In this document: positions 3,401-35,290 of the stretch, one piece after another
Numbering within the stretch: position 1 is the stretch's first letter
Layout of the letters: each line of letters starts with the position of its first letter
Origin: a virus
IMG/VR virus record: IMGVR_UViG_3300008450_000116
Coordinates: 1-40,085 of that record
Length of the DNA: 40,085 bases
Reading direction: 5' to 3' (one strand)
Program-made: the position numbers and the translations under genes
Notes under the pieces: model-generated
Told to the model about the DNA's origin: nothing
Database searches by the model: none
The model's input: the letters and a program-made list of their open reading frames with translations, nothing else

Positions 3401-3790
3401 TTACATGGATTGGCCGATTTGTGCGGCGGCGCGGACGATGGCGCGGCGGGTGGCCGCAAAAGCATCACTTACAACAAGCTCTAAAGCTTCGCCACTACTT
3501 GCAGCAACGTGCGGAGATCCCGCTGCGTTTATGCTCATGCAGAAGAATGACGTTCCTCGCCTGTCTTTTGTTGTCGGATCTATTTGCGCCAGCTTTACCG
3601 CCAACCGCAGCGCATCACCGTCGTCGGTTAGTGGGTTCCATTTATCCTCAAAGAAAATCCCGGATCTTTTGACAAAAGGCCCGTAGAAATCCAGCATTTC
3701 AAAGTCGCCAACGTCTGATGCGCAGGGCCTCCAGTAAATATCGATACCTGAAGCCTTAGCCGCCAACTCCAACAACTCACGATCACTCAT
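3401..3790 (-). CDS. Phage ABA-sandwich-like protein (129 aa)
   Basis: The core 'FEDKWNPLTDDGDALRLAVKL' and the C-terminal 'FAATRRAIVRAAAQIG' are the two conserved blocks of the small phage ABA-sandwich family (DUF2591-like), which occurs in accessory regions of many temperate and virulent phages. Family function is unknown. It is a single transcription-operon member with a 52-base gap to the methyltransferase upstream and the internal promoter 3364-3393 just downstream. Confidence 0.75.
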   Translation of the reverse strand: MSDRELLELAAKASGIDIYWRPCASDVGDFEMLDFYGPFVKRSGIFFEDKWNPLTDDGDALRLAVKLAQIDPTTKDRRGTSFFCMSINAAGSPHVAASSGEALELVVSDAFAATRRAIVRAAAQIGQSM

Positions 3791-4409: not shown

Positions 4410-4594
4410 TCTGTGTCTCCGATTAGTTGTTTTAGGCATGGTTGTTCTGCGGCGTATTTTTCCAGCCTCACCTGATCCCGATCAGACAGCGTATATGACG
4501 CCAGGTAGCGCTCCTTAATGCCTGATTGCTTGGCGATTGTGGCGAGGGGATAGCCTTCGCGGAGGAGGGTGGCGATGATTTCGGCGTGGGTCAT
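4406..4594 (-). CDS. Small HTH protein (62 aa)
   Basis: MTHAEIIATLLREGYPLATIAKQ followed by SGIKERYLASYTLSD reads as a helix-turn-helix of the Fis/resolvase-like type ('G-x-P-L-A-x-I-A-K-x-S-G-I-x-x-x-Y'). It overlaps the methyltransferase start (ATGA) and the upstream gene by 4 bases. It is likely a small DNA-binding protein of the early operon; specificity cannot be predicted. Confidence 0.65.
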   Translation of the reverse strand: MTHAEIIATLLREGYPLATIAKQSGIKERYLASYTLSDRDQVRLEKYAAEQPCLKQLIGDTE

Positions 4595-4914
4595 TTCGCT
4601 TGCTCCATGGCGGCGTCGATGGCGGCGTCAAGCGTTTCAGCCCGACAGTTGTGGTTTTCATATTCGTTCATGTCGCCACCTTCCCCGCAATAGAACTCGT
4701 CCGGACCGACATACCACGCGCTATCACGCAACCACCGATACCGCCCAGCATCCTTGCGCAGCTCTGCGTTTTCGGCGCGCAGGGTGCGGAGTTCATACAG
4801 TAGGCGCAGCGTATGCTCTGGATATGCGTAACCCCCGTCGAGCGCTTCCTGCTCAATCTCCCCCAGCAACTCATCGGTAAGCTTTTGTACCGCCGCTGTA
4901 GTTTCCATCTTCAT
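4591..4914 (-). CDS. First gene of the leftward early operon, hypothetical (107 aa)
   Basis: The ATG at 4914 is taken (another lies at 4908); both follow a GAGGGG ribosome site. The N-terminal half is helical, with a heptad-like stretch LRTLRAENAELRKDAGRYRWLRD, and the C-terminus has LDAAIDAAM. The 'ENAELRKDAGRYRWLRD' block is very common in accessory proteins of phages and prophages of gammaproteobacteria, without a known function. It is the promoter-proximal gene of the operon started at 4946-4973. Confidence 0.75.
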   Translation of the reverse strand: MKMETTAAVQKLTDELLGEIEQEALDGGYAYPEHTLRLLYELRTLRAENAELRKDAGRYRWLRDSAWYVGPDEFYCGEGGDMNEYENHNCRAETLDAAIDAAMEQAK

Positions 4915-5385: not shown

Positions 5386-7644
5386 TTACACGTTGAATAT
5401 CTTTGGCCCCTCTCTCCTTAGCGTATTGGCCGAAACCATAGCGTCAATCAGCTTGAGTATCTGGTCGCGCGTTACGCCCTTGCGTGACAGCCTGTATGAC
5501 GCCGTAGAGACGTAAACTCCTTCATCTCCGCACAAGGACACCACCCTGGCCGAAAGCCCCTCAGAAACGCTCTCCGGGGCTGCCGTTAGCTTGCTGTCGG
5601 TGTACTGGATAAGGCGTATCTTTTCGTCAAGGTCGCGCTTGATAAGTTTGGCTGCCCATGTGACGTGCTCGGCTGTTCGCAGGCCGCCAGGAATGGCCAG
5701 GATCAACGAAACCTTGCAGATGTACTCATAAGCGCGACGGGCTACCGCCTCAAACCCTGTCGTTGCCTTGTGGTGCTCGGCAAAGTGCCATTGCCAATCA
5801 AGAAGCTGGGCCAATAGTTCTTTTGCTCCAATGTCGGAAGGCACTGGTCGGCGATCCTTGTAGCTTTCGATCCGAACGCGATCAGAGTTTCCGGTTGATC
5901 CGATTCCGGCCAACGTCATCTTGTATGGGTCAGGCAGCGGAGTGCGGACGTACTTCTTATTTGGCTTCGGGTTCGTTTCGCGCTCTTCAATCAGGATGGC
6001 GCGGTTAAGAAACCCGTTCTTTGCCAGCTCGCTGGATAACGCCCCCTCCAAGGACTCAAGCGTGGTAAAGCCGATCAGGCTGACAAATGGTTTTGGCAGC
6101 CCGCCCAACGTCTCGATGCTGTTGCGCAGATTTTCCATGCTGTCGATGGCTGATTGCAGGCGCCCAGTCTTGTCGCCGTCTTCTTCCATCTTGCGCATCG
6201 CTTGGGCGAGCTTGGCGTTAATTTCCTTGAGCATGTCGCGGCGAACGTCACCTGAAACAGCCATGTAGCCGTCCGTTTTGGTGAAGGCCGACATAAGCTG
6301 CCCCGTCACACCCTCAAGATATGCCGCGCCACCTTTCTTCTTGGCATTCTCGATGGTGCGCAGTATCTCGCCAATTTCATCGGTGGCGTAGCAAACAGCC
6401 TGGTGCTCGATAAGGTTGCGGACAATTTCCTGCTTCGATTTGATATCACCAGCTATGCACCCGGCAATCCCGCCAGCCCGCATAAGGTCAGCAAAACATT
6501 GCTGGATTGATTCCTTGCCAGTGCCAGAGCCTGCCACGCACAGCGACATGATGTTGGATGTAACGCCGGTAACGTCGTCTTTGTTGGTTAGCCCGCCGAT
6601 GTTTCCGACTGCCGTCAATGCCGTGATCGCTGAGATGTTTTCGCGCAGGTAGTAGCTGTTGGTGTTGATCCACTCTGCCAGCTTCCCGACAAAGCCAGGC
6701 GGACGCAAAAGGTCGATATGGTCGGTGCTGAATGGAAGGTCGGTTGGCTTGGCGGTAGGAGCTGAATAGTTAGCCCCAAGATCGAACGTGACAGACCGCG
6801 CCCATCCGTTTTGCTCGGCCATGTAAATCAGCGTGCCGATGGTCACCGGGTTTGCCGACTTGCCAAAGCTATGCCACTTATATTCCATGTCCTTGCCGTC
6901 ATACTTCGACGACTGCTGCGCCCAGTTGTCCCACATTGAGAAGCTGGCGCCAGACGAATGTAGAGCCATGCCAATCTGTATGAAAGAGTCATAGTCAAGG
7001 TCAGCGTTTGGAATGTACGACAACATGCTCAATAGTTCGTCGTCGGTGACGTCGAATTGCTCGCCAGCGTATTCCGCGCGGTGGTGCATTGGTTTGGCCA
7101 GCATCTCCAATAGCCGCGACGGCGCTTGCGTCAATTCATCAGGGAACCCCTTGGAGCGCTCATACTGACCGCCGCTGATGTGACTAGAGCCGCAGCCAAC
7201 CACAAAGCCATTGCCCTTGAAGTCGATACCCTCATAGCCTTTAAGGTGTCCAAGCAAGGCCGACTTCGGACGGCTGAAATAAATGTGTCGACCATTACCG
7301 CCGGTTCGCACGACAAAGCCGCTCACGGCCTCAAAATCAATCCCGGTATCGGCAACCAGCTTGTCATAGGACTCATTACCGCCATTGCGCGGGTCAATGT
7401 CGATAACGAGGTGATCGTCTAGGCATACGCCAAAGCCGGTTTCGATGATGTATTGCAGTTGCGCGTCAAGCTGCTCTACGCTCCAGACTGGCGAGTTCTG
7501 CCATGCTCCAATGCGCGGGTGTTTGCCGGCCGCCTTACATTCCTCGTCGCCGCACTCGCACCTTCCGCCGACGATATTCCATAGCGCGAACACCCGAAAT
7601 CCGGCGTCCGCGTAGTCGCGCATAATTTCCAGTTCTCCGCTCAT
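5386..7644 (-). CDS. PrimPol-type DNA primase-helicase (752 aa)
   Basis: The N-terminal domain (about 1-190) is an archaeo-eukaryotic primase/polymerase: CECGDEECKAAGKHP (29-43) is the usual zinc-binding insert, VIDIDP (80-85) gives the catalytic DxD, and GRHIYF (119-123) the conserved histidine. Residues about 200-280 fit the PriCT-type primase C-terminal domain (ADLDYDSFIQIGMALHSSG). The remainder is a DUF3987-like ATPase/helicase with Walker A AGSGTGKES (371-379) and a Walker B-like CYATDEIGEI. It should prime and unwind DNA at the replication fork; no phage DNA polymerase is visible. It overlaps the upstream HTH gene (ATGA) and ends in a strong terminator. Confidence 0.9.
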   Translation of the reverse strand: MSGELEIMRDYADAGFRVFALWNIVGGRCECGDEECKAAGKHPRIGAWQNSPVWSVEQLDAQLQYIIETGFGVCLDDHLVIDIDPRNGGNESYDKLVADTGIDFEAVSGFVVRTGGNGRHIYFSRPKSALLGHLKGYEGIDFKGNGFVVGCGSSHISGGQYERSKGFPDELTQAPSRLLEMLAKPMHHRAEYAGEQFDVTDDELLSMLSYIPNADLDYDSFIQIGMALHSSGASFSMWDNWAQQSSKYDGKDMEYKWHSFGKSANPVTIGTLIYMAEQNGWARSVTFDLGANYSAPTAKPTDLPFSTDHIDLLRPPGFVGKLAEWINTNSYYLRENISAITALTAVGNIGGLTNKDDVTGVTSNIMSLCVAGSGTGKESIQQCFADLMRAGGIAGCIAGDIKSKQEIVRNLIEHQAVCYATDEIGEILRTIENAKKKGGAAYLEGVTGQLMSAFTKTDGYMAVSGDVRRDMLKEINAKLAQAMRKMEEDGDKTGRLQSAIDSMENLRNSIETLGGLPKPFVSLIGFTTLESLEGALSSELAKNGFLNRAILIEERETNPKPNKKYVRTPLPDPYKMTLAGIGSTGNSDRVRIESYKDRRPVPSDIGAKELLAQLLDWQWHFAEHHKATTGFEAVARRAYEYICKVSLILAIPGGLRTAEHVTWAAKLIKRDLDEKIRLIQYTDSKLTAAPESVSEGLSARVVSLCGDEGVYVSTASYRLSRKGVTRDQILKLIDAMVSANTLRREGPKIFNV

Positions 7645-27832: not shown

Positions 27833-28840
27833 TTACCAAGTTTGAGTATTTACGCCGGCCAATTTGGCCTCGCGCTTCAGGCTGAATGCCTTTCCTACAT
27901 TTCCCGACTTGTGCGCTTCTTGATACTTCTTATGAAGCGCGCGGCCGGATTCGGAGGTAGCTACGTCACCCTTTACCTGCGTTGCAGGCGCCGGGGCGTT
28001 GCTCTTCCGTTTTGCTGGAGCGCTCAGCTCGGCCGACAATTTGCCCAAGAACATCGAAGCCCGCAGGCCGCTAGGATCTTGAGTCAGCAGGCTGCGAAGT
28101 TCGTTGAGCCGCGCACTGTTAACGCCAAGGTTAAAGAAGACGCGCTCTGAACCATCGCCAAGCCCTGCGATCAATGAGTCAGTGATCGAATCTCCGCCGC
28201 CCGGGAAAATACCCTCAATGGCGCTACGGACTCGAAAGTCTGCCGACTGATAAACCTCAGGATCGATGCCGCTTGTCGCTGCCAGCTTTGCTGCACGCTC
28301 GTAGTGCTGATCGACCGACTGCTCTGTTGCTTGCTTAAACTCAAGATGCTTACGCTGCTGCTCGTACTGTGCCTGGCTTGCCTGCTGCTGTGCAGCAGAG
28401 GTGCCCATCTTCCAATCAACCAGAGCCTCTGCATACGCATCGTCCGGGTCGTCATGGTCAAAGAACTGCTCTCGCGTTGGCTTTGCGGTTACAGTAGGAA
28501 CTTGCTGCTTTTGAGCGGCCTCAAGCTGTGCTCGCAGTGCCTCCAGTTCGGTCTGATGTTTCGCCTCAAGCTTGGCGCGCATCTTCGCTTTTACTGCGCC
28601 AATATCGCTGTCGGTGAACTTCTTATCAGCACCCTGCGACTCTGGTTCGTCGCCTTTCATCCAGTCTTCAGCGTCTGCCTTTGCGCCTTCTGCTAGCTCG
28701 CCAGAGTCCGCACCCTGATCGCCTGCTTCTTGCTCATCGACCGCATCATCGATCACTTCCTCGATCTCGGCTTGCGGAGCCGGTGCCGATTCTGCCTCTC
28801 GCGCTGCGTTTTCTGCTCTTAACTGATCCAGATTAGCCAT
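27833..28840 (-). CDS. Scaffolding protein, P22 gp8-like (335 aa)
   Basis: This protein is very acidic at the N-terminus (EIEEVIDDAVDEQEAG), has long helical Gln/Ala-rich coiled coils (LEAKHQTELEALRAQLEAAQ), and ends in a basic helical tail (HKSGNVGKAFSLKREAKLAG), the coat-binding helix-turn-helix of P22-type scaffolds. It lies directly upstream of coat with an 11-base gap. It directs procapsid assembly and then leaves the shell. Confidence 0.88.
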   Translation of the reverse strand: MANLDQLRAENAAREAESAPAPQAEIEEVIDDAVDEQEAGDQGADSGELAEGAKADAEDWMKGDEPESQGADKKFTDSDIGAVKAKMRAKLEAKHQTELEALRAQLEAAQKQQVPTVTAKPTREQFFDHDDPDDAYAEALVDWKMGTSAAQQQASQAQYEQQRKHLEFKQATEQSVDQHYERAAKLAATSGIDPEVYQSADFRVRSAIEGIFPGGGDSITDSLIAGLGDGSERVFFNLGVNSARLNELRSLLTQDPSGLRASMFLGKLSAELSAPAKRKSNAPAPATQVKGDVATSESGRALHKKYQEAHKSGNVGKAFSLKREAKLAGVNTQTW

Positions 28841-28920
28841 GTATTACTCGCTTGGTAACGATTGCCGTGTGGTGCCTCACACGTAAGGTCGCGTTTAGCC
28901 TGTTCGCCTCAGTAGGTGCA

Positions 28921-28949
28921 ATTGTAATGTTATTGCATAACAAAAGCAA
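28921..28949 (-). promoter_or_regulatory. Scaffold/coat promoter with internal palindrome
   Basis: On the minus strand TTGCTT (28944-28949), 17 bases and TACAAT (28921-28926) stand 80 bases before the scaffold ATG. The 13-base palindrome GTTAT-N3-ATAAC (28929-28941) fills the spacer, a classical operator position. A divergent TTGACT (28958-28963) may belong to a weak rightward promoter for the 29018 operon. Confidence 0.5.
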
Positions 28950-29017
28950 AATAGTGCTTGACTAGGCTTTTTGGCTGGATGTAGGCTCGGGATTAAATCG
29001 CAAAAGGAGTACAGGAA

Positions 29018-29215
29018 ATGGGAATTCGACTGACAAAAAAGGCGTCTCTGGTGCTATGCAGGATAGGTATGCACAAGCCTGGCTATATACTTTTCATTCC
29101 TACAGCAAAGCTTCAGTGCGTTGCGCTCGGATATGAATGCACCATTTGCGAGCGGTGCGGTGACGAGATTGAAAATAAATATTGCGAAAAACTTCCAATT
29201 CTTTATAAGCGCTGA
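29018..29215 (+). CDS. Small zinc-finger-like protein of inserted cassette (65 aa)
   Basis: Basic start MGIRLTKKASLVLCRIGMHK, then CTICERCGDEIENKYC: C-x2-C-x2-C and a later C, a likely single zinc site. A GGAG ribosome site lies upstream. The gene runs opposite to the surrounding head genes and is followed by an AT-rich gap. It is probably a moron gene; the function is unknown. Confidence 0.65.
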   Translation: MGIRLTKKASLVLCRIGMHKPGYILFIPTAKLQCVALGYECTICERCGDEIENKYCEKLPILYKR

Positions 29216-29281
29216 CATGAATGAAAAAGCCCGCAGGTTTTAATTTACGACCTTGATTATGTGTTAATACTGGATATGAAC

Positions 29282-29767
29282 ATGTCAGAATTTATTATTG
29301 TGGTTGATGTTGACAACAAGCGTGCGAGCGCAGCATATATTAAGGGTCTTTCAGATCTTGAATTGATATGGCCGCAAATTCTTTGTTATTCTTGCAAAAA
29401 GGATAAGATATTATCTGAAAGTCGGTCGCAAATTCAGGATGAGTATGATGCTGAAATGGCAGAATACAAATCAAAAACAGACGATTATTCTCGGCGCTTT
29501 GCGGCTTACAATAATGGTGGATTTTTCAGAGGGGCTCGGCCGCCAATAGAGTACATCCACAGGCCTCGTCCGCCTGCAGAATTATTTACTAATCGAAGTT
29601 ATTGCTCGCGCTATGAGAGCATCCGCGCAGAGCTTAAACGCATGGCCGATCTGTCTGGCGCTGCTCTTGGGCCATATCGGATGACCGAGATGCAAGTTGG
29701 CGAGATGATTGCATGGGAAGACGGAAGCAGAATTGACATGATAAAACAAGAAATATATAGGGATTAA
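29282..29767 (+). CDS. Unknown protein of inserted cassette (161 aa)
   Basis: ATG at 29282 (MSEFIIVVDVDNKRASAAY) is preferred because GGA lies 7 bases upstream; GTG 29261 and ATG 29276 are alternatives. The protein has an N-terminal beta-alpha unit, a CYSC pair near residue 37, a charged helical middle (EYDAEMAEYKSKTDDYSRRF) with an RPP-rich loop, and a C-terminal helix. AT-rich codons set it apart from the neighbouring head genes. No family is recognised. It is coupled within 2 bases to a membrane protein gene, which suggests a joint role such as host takeover or exclusion. Confidence 0.65.
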   Translation: MSEFIIVVDVDNKRASAAYIKGLSDLELIWPQILCYSCKKDKILSESRSQIQDEYDAEMAEYKSKTDDYSRRFAAYNNGGFFRGARPPIEYIHRPRPPAELFTNRSYCSRYESIRAELKRMADLSGAALGPYRMTEMQVGEMIAWEDGSRIDMIKQEIYRD

Positions 29768-29769
29768 GA

Positions 29770-29961
29770 ATGAAGTACTACCATGACTTTCAAAAAGCGC
29801 GGAGCTATACGTATCTTGGAGCCGAGCTTGGTGTTATTTCCGCATTGATTTTGTTTAATGCGCACGGTAATTACGCAGTCGCATTATTTGTTCCGCTGGG
29901 CGCTTACCTTGGGTTTATGACCGGGTCATGCTTTCTTATGGCGCTTGGCGCAAAATGGTAA
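29770..29961 (+). CDS. Two-helix membrane protein of inserted cassette (63 aa)
   Basis: After MKYYHDFQKARSYTY come two hydrophobic segments, LGAELGVISALILFNA and YAVALFVPLGAYLGFM, joined by HGN. The positive N-terminus suggests N-in/C-in topology. It ends at a bidirectional terminator. Small two-helix proteins in phage moron cassettes are often superinfection-exclusion factors; for this one it is a hypothesis only. Confidence 0.65.
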   Translation: MKYYHDFQKARSYTYLGAELGVISALILFNAHGNYAVALFVPLGAYLGFMTGSCFLMALGAKW

Positions 29962-29962
29962 A

Positions 29963-29992
29963 GAAAAGCCCCAATTAAGGGGCTTTCTTTTT
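29963..29992. terminator. Bidirectional terminator between cassette and portal gene
   Basis: AAAGCCCC, loop AATTAA, GGGGCTTT with T-rich flanks on both strands (TTTCTTTTT on plus; TTTTCTTT on minus). It ends the rightward insert and the leftward terminase-portal transcript. Confidence 0.92.
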
Positions 29993-32126
29993 ACATCTGC
30001 CGCTGCGGCGTAGCACTCGACCTAAACGCACCTGAAGCCTTGAAGATGTTGTCCATCTGCTGCCCGCTGGTCTTGACTCGCATGTACTCGATGTCAGCGC
30101 CAGCCTTTTGCGCATCAACCTGAACAGCGGCGCGATCAGTCTGCGCGCGGAACTGGTCAATTTGAAGCTTGGCGTTATTGTTTTCAGCGGTAGCCTGATC
30201 CTTCATCATCTCGCGCTGTGCATTCATCTGAGCGGCCTTGGCTTTTTCCATCTCGGCCTGGGCGAGCAGCATGTTAGCGTCTGGCTGCTGAGGCTTGTTC
30301 ATTTCCGCCTCGACCATTGCTTTCTCTTCGTCGGTTTCTGGCTCTGCGCCGCCAGCCATGATTAACTGCTTGCGCGCATACTTGCGGATGTCATCCATCG
30401 CCACGCCATCAACCAGGGTAAGCTGCTTGAGCACGAGCATCTTTGTCATCGTTGGATCAATTGCAGCCATCGACTCCGCCATCTGCCCAAGCTGCTCAAT
30501 GGTCTGCTCTTTCTTGCTGGCGTAACTTGGCCCGATATCTGCATAAACATCATACTCGGTATTGGTAAGATCGTTCAGCGTTACTAGGTTGCCGGTCTCC
30601 TTGTCCTGAATCGCCTGCATGATGCTGGCTTTCTTAGTGGTGCCATCCGGCAGGGTCAGGGTAACTTCGCGCGGGGCATCATAAACCTCGACGGCCATGC
30701 TCGCGTAGATCTCAGCATCCCGGCGCTTGGCGTGCTTCAGGTTCTGCTGGTACACGATAGACTGCTGATCGAGGCGATTGGTCAGCGCCATCACCGCCTT
30801 GCCAGACAGGTCAGGGTCTGCGATGTCCTGCGGCAAACCAGGGTTTGCGACATCCTCCACAGCCTGGCGAGACAGCTCGATAGACGCCATCAGCGCTTGC
30901 GGAATTGTCTGTTCAGGCATGACGGAAACAGGGCCAATCGGTAGCGCCTGACCGCTTGCGTCTGTGCGGTTCTGGAGTAGGTACGGATAGTTACTGTCCG
31001 CGCCGTTTTCCTCGTACATAAACTCGAAACCCTGAATCTGCTCAGGGTTGAAGATCGGCTTCGGGCGCGGGCTACGGCTAACGATGTCAGCCAGGTAGCT
31101 CATTTGAAAGTTGCGCAGACGCATCGGATCTTTTGCTATGCGGGTGATGCCTTCGTAGCACTCCTCGCCCTCGACAAAGGCGCGCTCGCCATAGGTCGGA
31201 ACCACCGGGATATTCTCGCCAGCGATTACTTCGCCGGTTCGTTCGCCGTCAATCAGTTCACCATTCAGGATCTCTTCGCCAGATGCGATGTACTTGCGCA
31301 CTTCCCATCGCTCAATGGCGCGCTCTGACTCGACTACATAGCCATCGTCGATCAGTTCATCCATCACGTCTTCAAGGTCAGACGCGCGCAACATAAGCGG
31401 CTGGCCGAGCGGGTCGGTCATGGTGATTACTTTGTCTTTGACCTTTTTCTTGTGGTAGAAGATCGCCACATAGATCAGGTCATTACCAGCGCCGGCCCAG
31501 GGGAAAGTATACGACTGCTCAGGGCTGGCAAAAGAAGACGGGTTGCATTCTTTCTCTTCGCCGGTAAGTTCCTCGACAAGCTCCTCATAGCCGTCCTGAG
31601 AATACGCCTCAAGGATCGACACATACATTGCATCAGACTTATCGAGGCGCTTGGCGTTCGGATCCCAGAAACAGTTATTATTTGCCTCATATACCGGGCG
31701 GCGCCGGATAACCTGGCGATCATTGCCAGCCCGGTTGCTTTCATACTCGGTGTAGAGTTCCCATGCGCCGACACCGCACACAACTGCCTCGCCAACGGCA
31801 TTGTCGTATGCCTCAAGCGATGTATTTGCGCGGTCATCAGTCAGATATAGTCCGTCAATGATATCGGCGCCATCTTCGCGCGAATCACTCTTAGGCTTGA
31901 AGTTAACCTGCACTGGATTTGAGCGAAGATCACCGACAATCTGCCGGCCTGCCTTGCGCAACAGGTCAAACTGCCCGCGATATGCCAGCGTTGAATCGCC
32001 AAGCGTTGTCTCATCCCACTGCGTAACCCAATAAAACAGCATGTCATCTGCTGCTTTCATTCGGGTATCTTGGCCGCGATTATAGGCCTTGTCGTGCAGC
32101 GTCTTGAGCTTCTTGAGTGTAATCAT
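29991..32126 (-). CDS. Portal protein, P22 gp1-like (711 aa)
   Basis: The size is close to P22 portal (725). The N-terminal block 'KAYNRGQDTRMKAADDMLFYWVTQWDE' (seen in two parts), 'RGQFDLLRKAGRQIVGDLRSNP' and 'DPNAKRLDKSDAMYV' are conserved in the P22_portal family. Residues about 540-690 form the long C-terminal helical barrel (KAKAAQMNAQREMMKDQATAE). It makes the dodecameric DNA entry ring. It overlaps the terminase gene by 4 bases, so packaging and portal proteins are coupled. Confidence 0.94.
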   Translation of the reverse strand: MITLKKLKTLHDKAYNRGQDTRMKAADDMLFYWVTQWDETTLGDSTLAYRGQFDLLRKAGRQIVGDLRSNPVQVNFKPKSDSREDGADIIDGLYLTDDRANTSLEAYDNAVGEAVVCGVGAWELYTEYESNRAGNDRQVIRRRPVYEANNNCFWDPNAKRLDKSDAMYVSILEAYSQDGYEELVEELTGEEKECNPSSFASPEQSYTFPWAGAGNDLIYVAIFYHKKKVKDKVITMTDPLGQPLMLRASDLEDVMDELIDDGYVVESERAIERWEVRKYIASGEEILNGELIDGERTGEVIAGENIPVVPTYGERAFVEGEECYEGITRIAKDPMRLRNFQMSYLADIVSRSPRPKPIFNPEQIQGFEFMYEENGADSNYPYLLQNRTDASGQALPIGPVSVMPEQTIPQALMASIELSRQAVEDVANPGLPQDIADPDLSGKAVMALTNRLDQQSIVYQQNLKHAKRRDAEIYASMAVEVYDAPREVTLTLPDGTTKKASIMQAIQDKETGNLVTLNDLTNTEYDVYADIGPSYASKKEQTIEQLGQMAESMAAIDPTMTKMLVLKQLTLVDGVAMDDIRKYARKQLIMAGGAEPETDEEKAMVEAEMNKPQQPDANMLLAQAEMEKAKAAQMNAQREMMKDQATAENNNAKLQIDQFRAQTDRAAVQVDAQKAGADIEYMRVKTSGQQMDNIFKASGAFRSSATPQRQM

Positions 32127-34525: not shown

Positions 34526-34843
34526 TTAAAATATCTTATCAAGATTGGTGCCGATTACAGCAGCGGCAGCAGTCACAATGGTTAAAAGTGTGCTTCGATA
34601 CATTGACTTTGCAATGTCGAGAATTGGCTTATTATGCGCCGATTCGATCTGCATTGCATGTATCTGCTTTTCAGCGTCACCGACTCGCAGTGACACGCTA
34701 TCAAAGCTATCCTTCGTGTGGCGCAACTCCGTCACAAGAGTCTTCACCTCGCCGCACACGCCCGCCATCTGCGTCATCAGCTCTATATGGGCGCCCCGCA
34801 TCGAGCGTATCTCTTCCAGAACGTGATGAGTGGAGTCGGTCAT
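34526..34843 (-). CDS. Coiled-coil protein with C-terminal membrane helix (105 aa)
   Basis: Residues 5-75 are heptad-patterned (EIRSMRGAHIELMTQM, VKTLVTELRHTKDSFDSV); the C-terminus has a hydrophobic stretch, LLTIVTAAAAVIGTNL, followed by DKIF. This topology resembles haemolysin XhlA-type and some spanin/holin accessory proteins of phages. It is encoded beside two other membrane proteins, so a lysis role is plausible. Its start lies within the preceding membrane-protein frame. Confidence 0.6.
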   Translation of the reverse strand: MTDSTHHVLEEIRSMRGAHIELMTQMAGVCGEVKTLVTELRHTKDSFDSVSLRVGDAEKQIHAMQIESAHNKPILDIAKSMYRSTLLTIVTAAAAVIGTNLDKIF

Positions 34844-34943
34844 TGTGCAGTCTCTTTATTCTTAGGCCGTCCCGCGCGTGAAGTATCGCAAGGACTATAA
34901 AGCCGATCAGTGTGATAGTCGTTGCGATCTGCCAGCCATCCAC
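34707..34943 (-). CDS. Membrane protein with N-terminal helix, overlapping next gene (78 aa)
   Basis: MDGWQIATTITLIGFIVLAIL is a clear N-terminal transmembrane helix; the basic HARDGLRIKRLH follows, and then a charged tail that is read over the first 46 codons of the coiled-coil gene in a different frame. N-terminal anchor plus charged tail recalls inner-membrane spanin subunits, but the tail is short and not clearly coiled-coil. The first 100 bases are not used by any other gene. Confidence 0.5.
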   Translation of the reverse strand: MDGWQIATTITLIGFIVLAILHARDGLRIKRLHNDRLHSSRSGRDTLDAGRPYRADDADGGRVRRGEDSCDGVAPHEG

Positions 34944-35290
34944 GCGCTCAGCTCCTTATACATCCCAATGCAGATGCAGCCATTGATTAGCGCAGATAGA
35001 TAGATTGCGTTAGATAGTAACAAATCGCCGTTGTTTACGGACTCAAAGGAAAGCGCAACCATTACGACCGCGCTCAGGTATAGCGATGCCCGCTTTTTGA
35101 TAGACGCCAGCAGGAAATCACCAATAGCCAGAGCCGCAAACATCATCGCAAGAACTGAGCCATCAGCATACTCGACGCCGAGCAGCATCACGTTAGCCAA
35201 TGCGAACATGGCAAAGTGCGCAGCAATATCGCGCGACAATGGCATCGCCACAATCATAAGCGCCAGGCATGCCAATAGCTCAAAGGTCAT
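34907..35290 (-). CDS. Polytopic membrane protein, holin candidate (127 aa)
   Basis: About four hydrophobic helices are visible: LLACLALMIVAMPL, FAMFALANVMLLGVEYA, VLAMMFAALAIGDFLLASI and LYLSAVVMVALSF, then a last one around YLSALINGCICIGMY. It is followed by two further membrane proteins and preceded by two small genes from one promoter. A holin-like role is possible because the genome needs a holin for its signal-less endolysin, but no holin family is recognised. Confidence 0.6.
   Translation of the reverse strand: MTFELLACLALMIVAMPLSRDIAAHFAMFALANVMLLGVEYADGSVLAMMFAALAIGDFLLASIKKRASLYLSAVVMVALSFESVNNGDLLLSNAIYLSALINGCICIGMYKELSAWMAGRSQRLSH

Follow-up and report, generated by a model that had tools for sequence, protein, structure and literature searches.

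Reportedly, feedback control of scaffolding protein synthesis in phage P22 was described decades ago by King, Casjens and colleagues, and Wyckoff and Casjens are said to have found in 1985 that the protein lowers its own synthesis post-transcriptionally when it is unassembled. To our knowledge, no RNA target of this feedback has been defined so far. Described systems close to the locus presented here also include the morons of lambdoid phages and prophages, which are accessory genes placed between conserved operon genes, and the autogenous pseudoknot operator of phage T4 gene 32 (PMC3014915, PMC535899). In this work, a viral DNA of 40,085 bp (hereafter the window, meaning the whole stretch analysed) was examined around a three-gene cassette lying between its portal and scaffold genes, and the scaffold gene was found to be preceded by a covarying RNA leader that bounds the cassette site in related phages.

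Genome and Head Module

A direct terminal repeat of 114 bp makes it probable that the window is a complete phage genome. The head module, of P22-like type, is encoded on the minus strand. Among named phages the nearest is Pseudomonas phage AH02 (69% DNA identity across 70% of 4 kb), in which terminase, portal, scaffold and capsid genes follow the same order as in the window. The portal protein gene (29991..32126, minus strand) shows 50-87% identity to its relatives, the best segment of the L032 portal reaching 87%. The head scaffolding protein gene (27833..28840, minus strand) was assigned by its match to PHROG 648, head scaffolding protein (E 1e-15), and its product shares 57% identity with the AH02 scaffold. 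Of the proteins of the window that were scanned, none was recognised as an integrase or repressor, so that lysogeny is doubtful and expression from a prophage is not evident.

The adjacency of portal and scaffold in P22-type genomes, on which the sequence-only reading of this DNA had relied, was confirmed in the P22-type phage Emek, where the two genes are 13 bp apart. The same junction measures 113 bp in AH02, 142 bp in L032 and 1,150 bp in the window.

Layout and Composition of the Cassette

The junction of the window holds three ORFs of 65, 161 and 63 aa on the plus strand (29018-29961), antisense to the portal and scaffold genes, both on the minus strand. The cassette that the sequence-only reading had placed here is thus real; its description as reverse-strand holds relative to the head genes and not for the window, on whose plus strand it lies. 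Its AT-richness and its difference from the flanking head genes were likewise borne out, with a GC content of 0.434 vs 0.533 for the genome and GC3 values of 0.39-0.48 in the cassette genes vs 0.57-0.72 in the head genes. The genome minimum for 944-bp windows falls here, and the cassette lies within the lowest 0.6% of such windows by GC.

On the portal side, the proposed bidirectional terminator was recovered as a two-way intrinsic hairpin (29965..29986, both strands, fold z -4.5) common to the cassette (plus strand) and the portal gene (minus strand), with a T-rich tail on each strand seen by inspection. A terminator after the portal gene is also present in some relatives with an empty site (L032, L018 and L022). 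On the scaffold side, inspection revealed a candidate cassette promoter, TTGACT-18-TAGGCT (28958..28987, plus strand), which is weak, agrees with the consensus at 8/12 positions and was unreported by the promoter scan.

Proteins Encoded by the Cassette

The start of the second gene, of 161 aa (29282..29767, plus strand), was set by the alignment of its relatives; the mechanical ORF runs from 29261, and the alternative starts are GTG at 29261 and ATG at 29276. An ORF of this length was reached in 1/500 dinucleotide shuffles of the region, and five viral contigs, including a pair of near copies, contain relatives with identities of 50, 43, 39 and 37%. Judged from the sequence, this ORF is a gene because such a long frame is rare in shuffles and because of these relatives at 37-50% identity. 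Conservation in the family is confined to an N-terminal block, FIIVVDVDNKRA, and a C-terminal block, RAELKRMADL..GPYRMTE.QV.EMIAWEDGSRI, which are linked by a variable long helix.

Profile searches, proposed earlier as a check together with structure prediction, matched none of the three cassette proteins to a Pfam, PHROG, NCBIfam or PADLOC family, the PADLOC library covering anti-phage defence proteins, with anti-defence genes outside its coverage. The 161-aa protein was modelled at pLDDT 82.7 and pTM 0.62 as a small core of two strands and a helix with a long helix, and the single good fold match was an uncharacterised protein of Ralstonia phage Heva (E 9e-6, 18% identity). This match and the relatives in five viral contigs contradict the earlier statement that the protein resembles nothing known. 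Sequence and fold searches against the PDB gave nothing significant, and no relatives were found in named phages, plasmids or GTDB genomes. Weak matches to a Gordonia phage terminase (E 0.04) were taken as chance.

The relatives of the 161-aa gene occupy diverse positions. In L002 the gene lies in the early small-gene region of a 90-kb contig, and in the podovirus-like contig L083 it is found between the primase and the terminase region, whereas in the GC-rich contigs L084 and L085 it stands alone amid the tail and head genes of a contractile-tailed phage and is antisense to them (neighbouring genes identified by eye in the last three contigs). Two genes of the window, at 34526-34843 and 34907-35290 (minus strand), resemble by eye the L083 genes at 6049-6447 and 6505-6834, which are neighbours of the 161-aa relative, and the L083 phage may thus share further genes with the window.

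The first gene (29018..29215, plus strand), with an AGGAG start region at 29005 seen by inspection, encodes a cysteine-rich protein of 65 aa with the patterns C-x4-H and CxxCxxC. From these residues it is probably a small zinc-binding protein; no family was above the cut-off, with DUF1272 at E 0.026. The third gene (29770..29961, plus strand) has its start codon directly after the stop of the 161-aa gene and encodes 63 aa with two hydrophobic segments, the 17-residue hydropathy means being as high as 1.6 around residues 15 and 36-43, so that the product is a probable membrane protein. Neither the 65-aa nor the 63-aa protein had relatives in the viral contigs or portal-bearing relatives searched, and it is position, start region and composition that suggest these two ORFs to be genes.

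A Recurrent Cargo Slot between Portal and Scaffold

A survey of 80 portal relatives and named phages yielded 58 loci with both a portal stop and the scaffold leader, some of them near duplicates. The two were separated by at most 100 nt in 31 loci, by 175-180 nt in four, and by 300 nt or more, up to 2300, in the other 23. Cargo is always located before the leader, which remains adjacent to the scaffold start. The cargo usually differs between loci, contains ORFs on both strands and was AT-richer than the portal gene, at least marginally, in 19/19 loci. Identified cargo includes GIY-YIG/T5orf172 (L019), HNH_3 (L036), YopX (L043) and a large polyvalent-protein domain (L066), and the remainder comprises many small ORFs without a recognised family. 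The slot and the turnover of its cargo are evident from these comparisons, and since varied, AT-rich cargo occupies the same junction in many loci, the cassette of the window is, on this comparative evidence, one filling of a recurrent slot. The genes of the cassette themselves are absent from every portal-bearing relative searched, the junction there being empty or otherwise filled. The earlier suggestion of a moron-type site for accessory genes, which would have failed had all relatives carried the same genes, is therefore supported by the comparison of this junction.

Several further elements were observed in these slots. A short ORF with the pattern MKTF..EF..P..VYR..DKEGS, noticed by inspection in L027, L031, L039, L043, L044 and L046, lies antisense to the head genes, has a start like that of Phd-type antitoxins and matched no family. 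The stretch GCATAAGGCTGCACCATGGAGCGGCTTGATGCC and its variants, followed by a terminator-like hairpin, occur near the end of the portal gene or of the cargo at the junctions of L003, L004, L005, L006, L009, L010, L012 and L015, and possibly represent a small repeated element. In addition, a gene of the early region of the window (3401-3790, minus strand, phrog_5086) appears as slot cargo in L013, as a 108-aa ORF, and in L014.

Structured Leader RNA of the Scaffold Gene

The slot is bounded on the scaffold side by a conserved promoter and a structured RNA leader, both overlooked in the sequence-only reading. The leader, of about 75 nt, lies directly before the scaffold start codon at near-fixed spacing. 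In the window it consists of two tandem H-type pseudoknots (28864..28913, minus strand), supported by covariation and found by the covariance model in a single place (E 4e-12), and of a third element, the hairpin UCGUU-ACCA-AGCGA (28848..28861, minus strand), next to a weak ribosome-binding site. In an alignment of 37 leaders made by sequence alone, 91.5% of the cells of the pseudoknots were paired vs 71.3 in shuffles, two-sided changes were seen in 15/16 pairs, and covariation reached 0.517 vs 0.153 (sd 0.014) in shuffles and at most 0.113 in slid versions. The leaders had been trimmed by a structure-seeking parse, so that the choice of sequence leans towards structure; however, the slid control and the model matches outside the 37 speak against this trimming as the cause of the covariation. 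Support for the third hairpin is moderate and weaker than that for the pseudoknots (86.5% of cells paired; covariation 0.274 vs 0.133 in shuffles). Folded without pseudoknots, as a nested structure, the window leader was no stabler than shuffles (z 0.21). The possibility that the leader acts as a DNA-level site for packaging or recombination was set aside because its covarying pairs form pseudoknots, which need a folded single strand. Frameshifting was likewise set aside, as most loci have no gene that extends into the leader.

The bond of the leader to the scaffold gene is evident from its distribution. The covariance model located it in 64/81 sources, in each of which the scaffold leader was the one main place; none of the 81 sources had a significant match elsewhere than at scaffold leaders. 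The matches include loci outside the model-building set. Leaders of this kind are present in 60+ loci, for instance at L001:4370-4419:-. The 17 sources without a match include the scaffold-less L002 and L083-L085, the P22-type Emek, some fragments and several divergent loci; for the divergent L038, L045, L056 and L072 a comparable fold can be traced by eye. A second tandem copy, weak by model score, was observed at L039:9392-9490, L040:9392-9490 and L046:4852-4950, and another was seen by eye in L029 near 4587-4640. Among 2.9 million viral contigs, a 22-mer of the leader gave 20 matches, 19 with scaffold downstream and the 20th in a contig that ends before it. A second leader pattern gave 16 matches in viral contigs, with scaffold downstream in 8/8 newly added loci. 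Rfam produced no match in the whole window at the gathering threshold. On the leader, nothing appeared at E values up to 5, and the closest match, a snoRNA at chance level, lies beside it on the opposite strand. A literature search found no description of such a leader, subscription papers being mostly beyond its reach. The leader thus appears to be a strongly conserved RNA fold that is apparently undescribed.

Upstream of the leader in the window lies the scaffold promoter, TTTGCT-18-TACAAT (28921..28950, minus strand), whose -10 element ends 7 nt before the leader. Among the 33 loci in which portal and leader are 30 nt or more apart, a sigma70-like site agreeing at 8/12 or more positions was present in 24, vs 5% of control stretches, and in 22 of these 24 the -10 element ends 6-7 nt before the leader. 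This spacing suggests that the first base of the leader is probably where transcription of the scaffold mRNA begins. The 14 loci with less room showed a sigma70-like site in two, and from its position the leader in such loci is read as internal to a longer mRNA. The leader is retained even at loci that lack a promoter and in which it overlaps the portal stop, a pattern that favours a function in translation or processing.

Proposed Function and Alternative Explanations

We propose that the cassette forms an accessory transcription unit complete in itself, located at a boundary between transcription units, from the portal terminator to the scaffold promoter, and that it would be read from its own candidate promoter, independently of the late head operon. 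Its cysteine-rich, helical and membrane proteins would act on the host cell and not in the virion; the sequence-only reading had suggested exclusion, anti-defence or host modification. The pseudoknots of the leader may be the binding site of free scaffold protein, or of a different assembly protein, and, once bound, would together with the hairpin adjacent to the ribosome-binding site lower scaffold translation when scaffold is in excess. The leader would thereby act as an operator limiting scaffold synthesis, probably autogenously, and the slot would end at the leader because the latter has a function within the scaffold mRNA. Taken together, an accessory unit in a recurrent slot and a translational operator beside it form an explanation that we hold to be reasonably probable. 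A broader proposal, in which a double pseudoknot with a ribosome-binding-site hairpin constitutes a new operator class controlled by scaffold or coat protein across a broad set of P22-like podoviruses, with the slot as a main entry of accessory genes into the head operon, is put forward tentatively, its chances being a little short of even.

The position of the cassette among head genes, and the start of the 63-aa gene directly after the 161-aa stop, would also agree with a role as virion or assembly components specific to the window phage. However, the cassette lies on the strand opposite to the head operon and has its own terminator, its genes are missing from all relatives with the same head genes, and the relatives of the 161-aa protein come from early regions or from phages with a different type of virion. 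Given the strand of the cassette, its absence from relatives and the context of the 161-aa relatives, this explanation was rejected as very improbable. It is also unlikely that the cassette is selfish or decaying DNA of no benefit to the phage, such as the debris of a homing endonuclease. The GIY-YIG or HNH genes in the slots of some relatives can spread by themselves and drag neighbours along, but the cassette of the window contains no endonuclease, and the conserved blocks of the 161-aa family, with 37-50% identity across distant phages, suggest selection.

As for the leader, pseudoknots at the predicted 5' end would cap the transcript in those loci where a promoter is seen, as expected if the element were a stabiliser of the mRNA 5' end or a processing site and not a translational operator. 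This role has some claim to consideration and is judged somewhat unlikely, because the leader of another group, which has no promoter and touches or overlaps the portal stop, is conserved although internal, and because the third hairpin and the near-fixed distance from the start codon indicate translation. Compact pseudoknots are a frequent ligand-binding architecture, and covariation attests the fold of the leader while its protein partner is only proposed, so the RNA could instead sense a host molecule (an ion, a metabolite, the ribosome or an sRNA) and tie capsid assembly to the state of the host. Nevertheless, the leader is tied to one structural gene of one phage group, which fits a phage protein better, and we regard host sensing as quite improbable. 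With regard to the favoured explanation, a translational operator beside an accessory slot, the occurrence of leader and scaffold gene in dozens of relatives, including the cultured Pseudomonas phage AH02, provides a ready target of 75 nt for tests, and the slot offers a defined place in which to seek uncharacterised accessory genes of the group, the 161-aa family among them.

Comparison with Known Systems

The proposed control of the leader and the autoregulation of P22 scaffold, the subject of the 1985 paper listed in PMC5744158, concern the same gene product. However, the precedent is P22-type, and unlike the window the P22-type Emek has no such leader (13-bp junction, no model match), so that the link to P22 scaffold feedback is one of analogy only. 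For the RNA itself, the closest precedent is the pseudoknot operator of T4 gene 32 (PMC3014915), which likewise is an H-type pseudoknot in a 5' leader and serves a product needed in controlled amounts. The scaffold leader differs from it in combining two tandem pseudoknots and a hairpin within about 75 nt, in preceding a capsid scaffold gene, and in that its binding is so far only proposed. The cassette resembles lambdoid morons in comprising accessory genes of deviant base composition between conserved operon genes, with their own terminator and absent from relatives. Unlike these morons, it resides in a genome in which no integrase or repressor was recognised among the proteins scanned, two of its genes have no known relatives, and its slot is bounded by the structured leader of the next gene.
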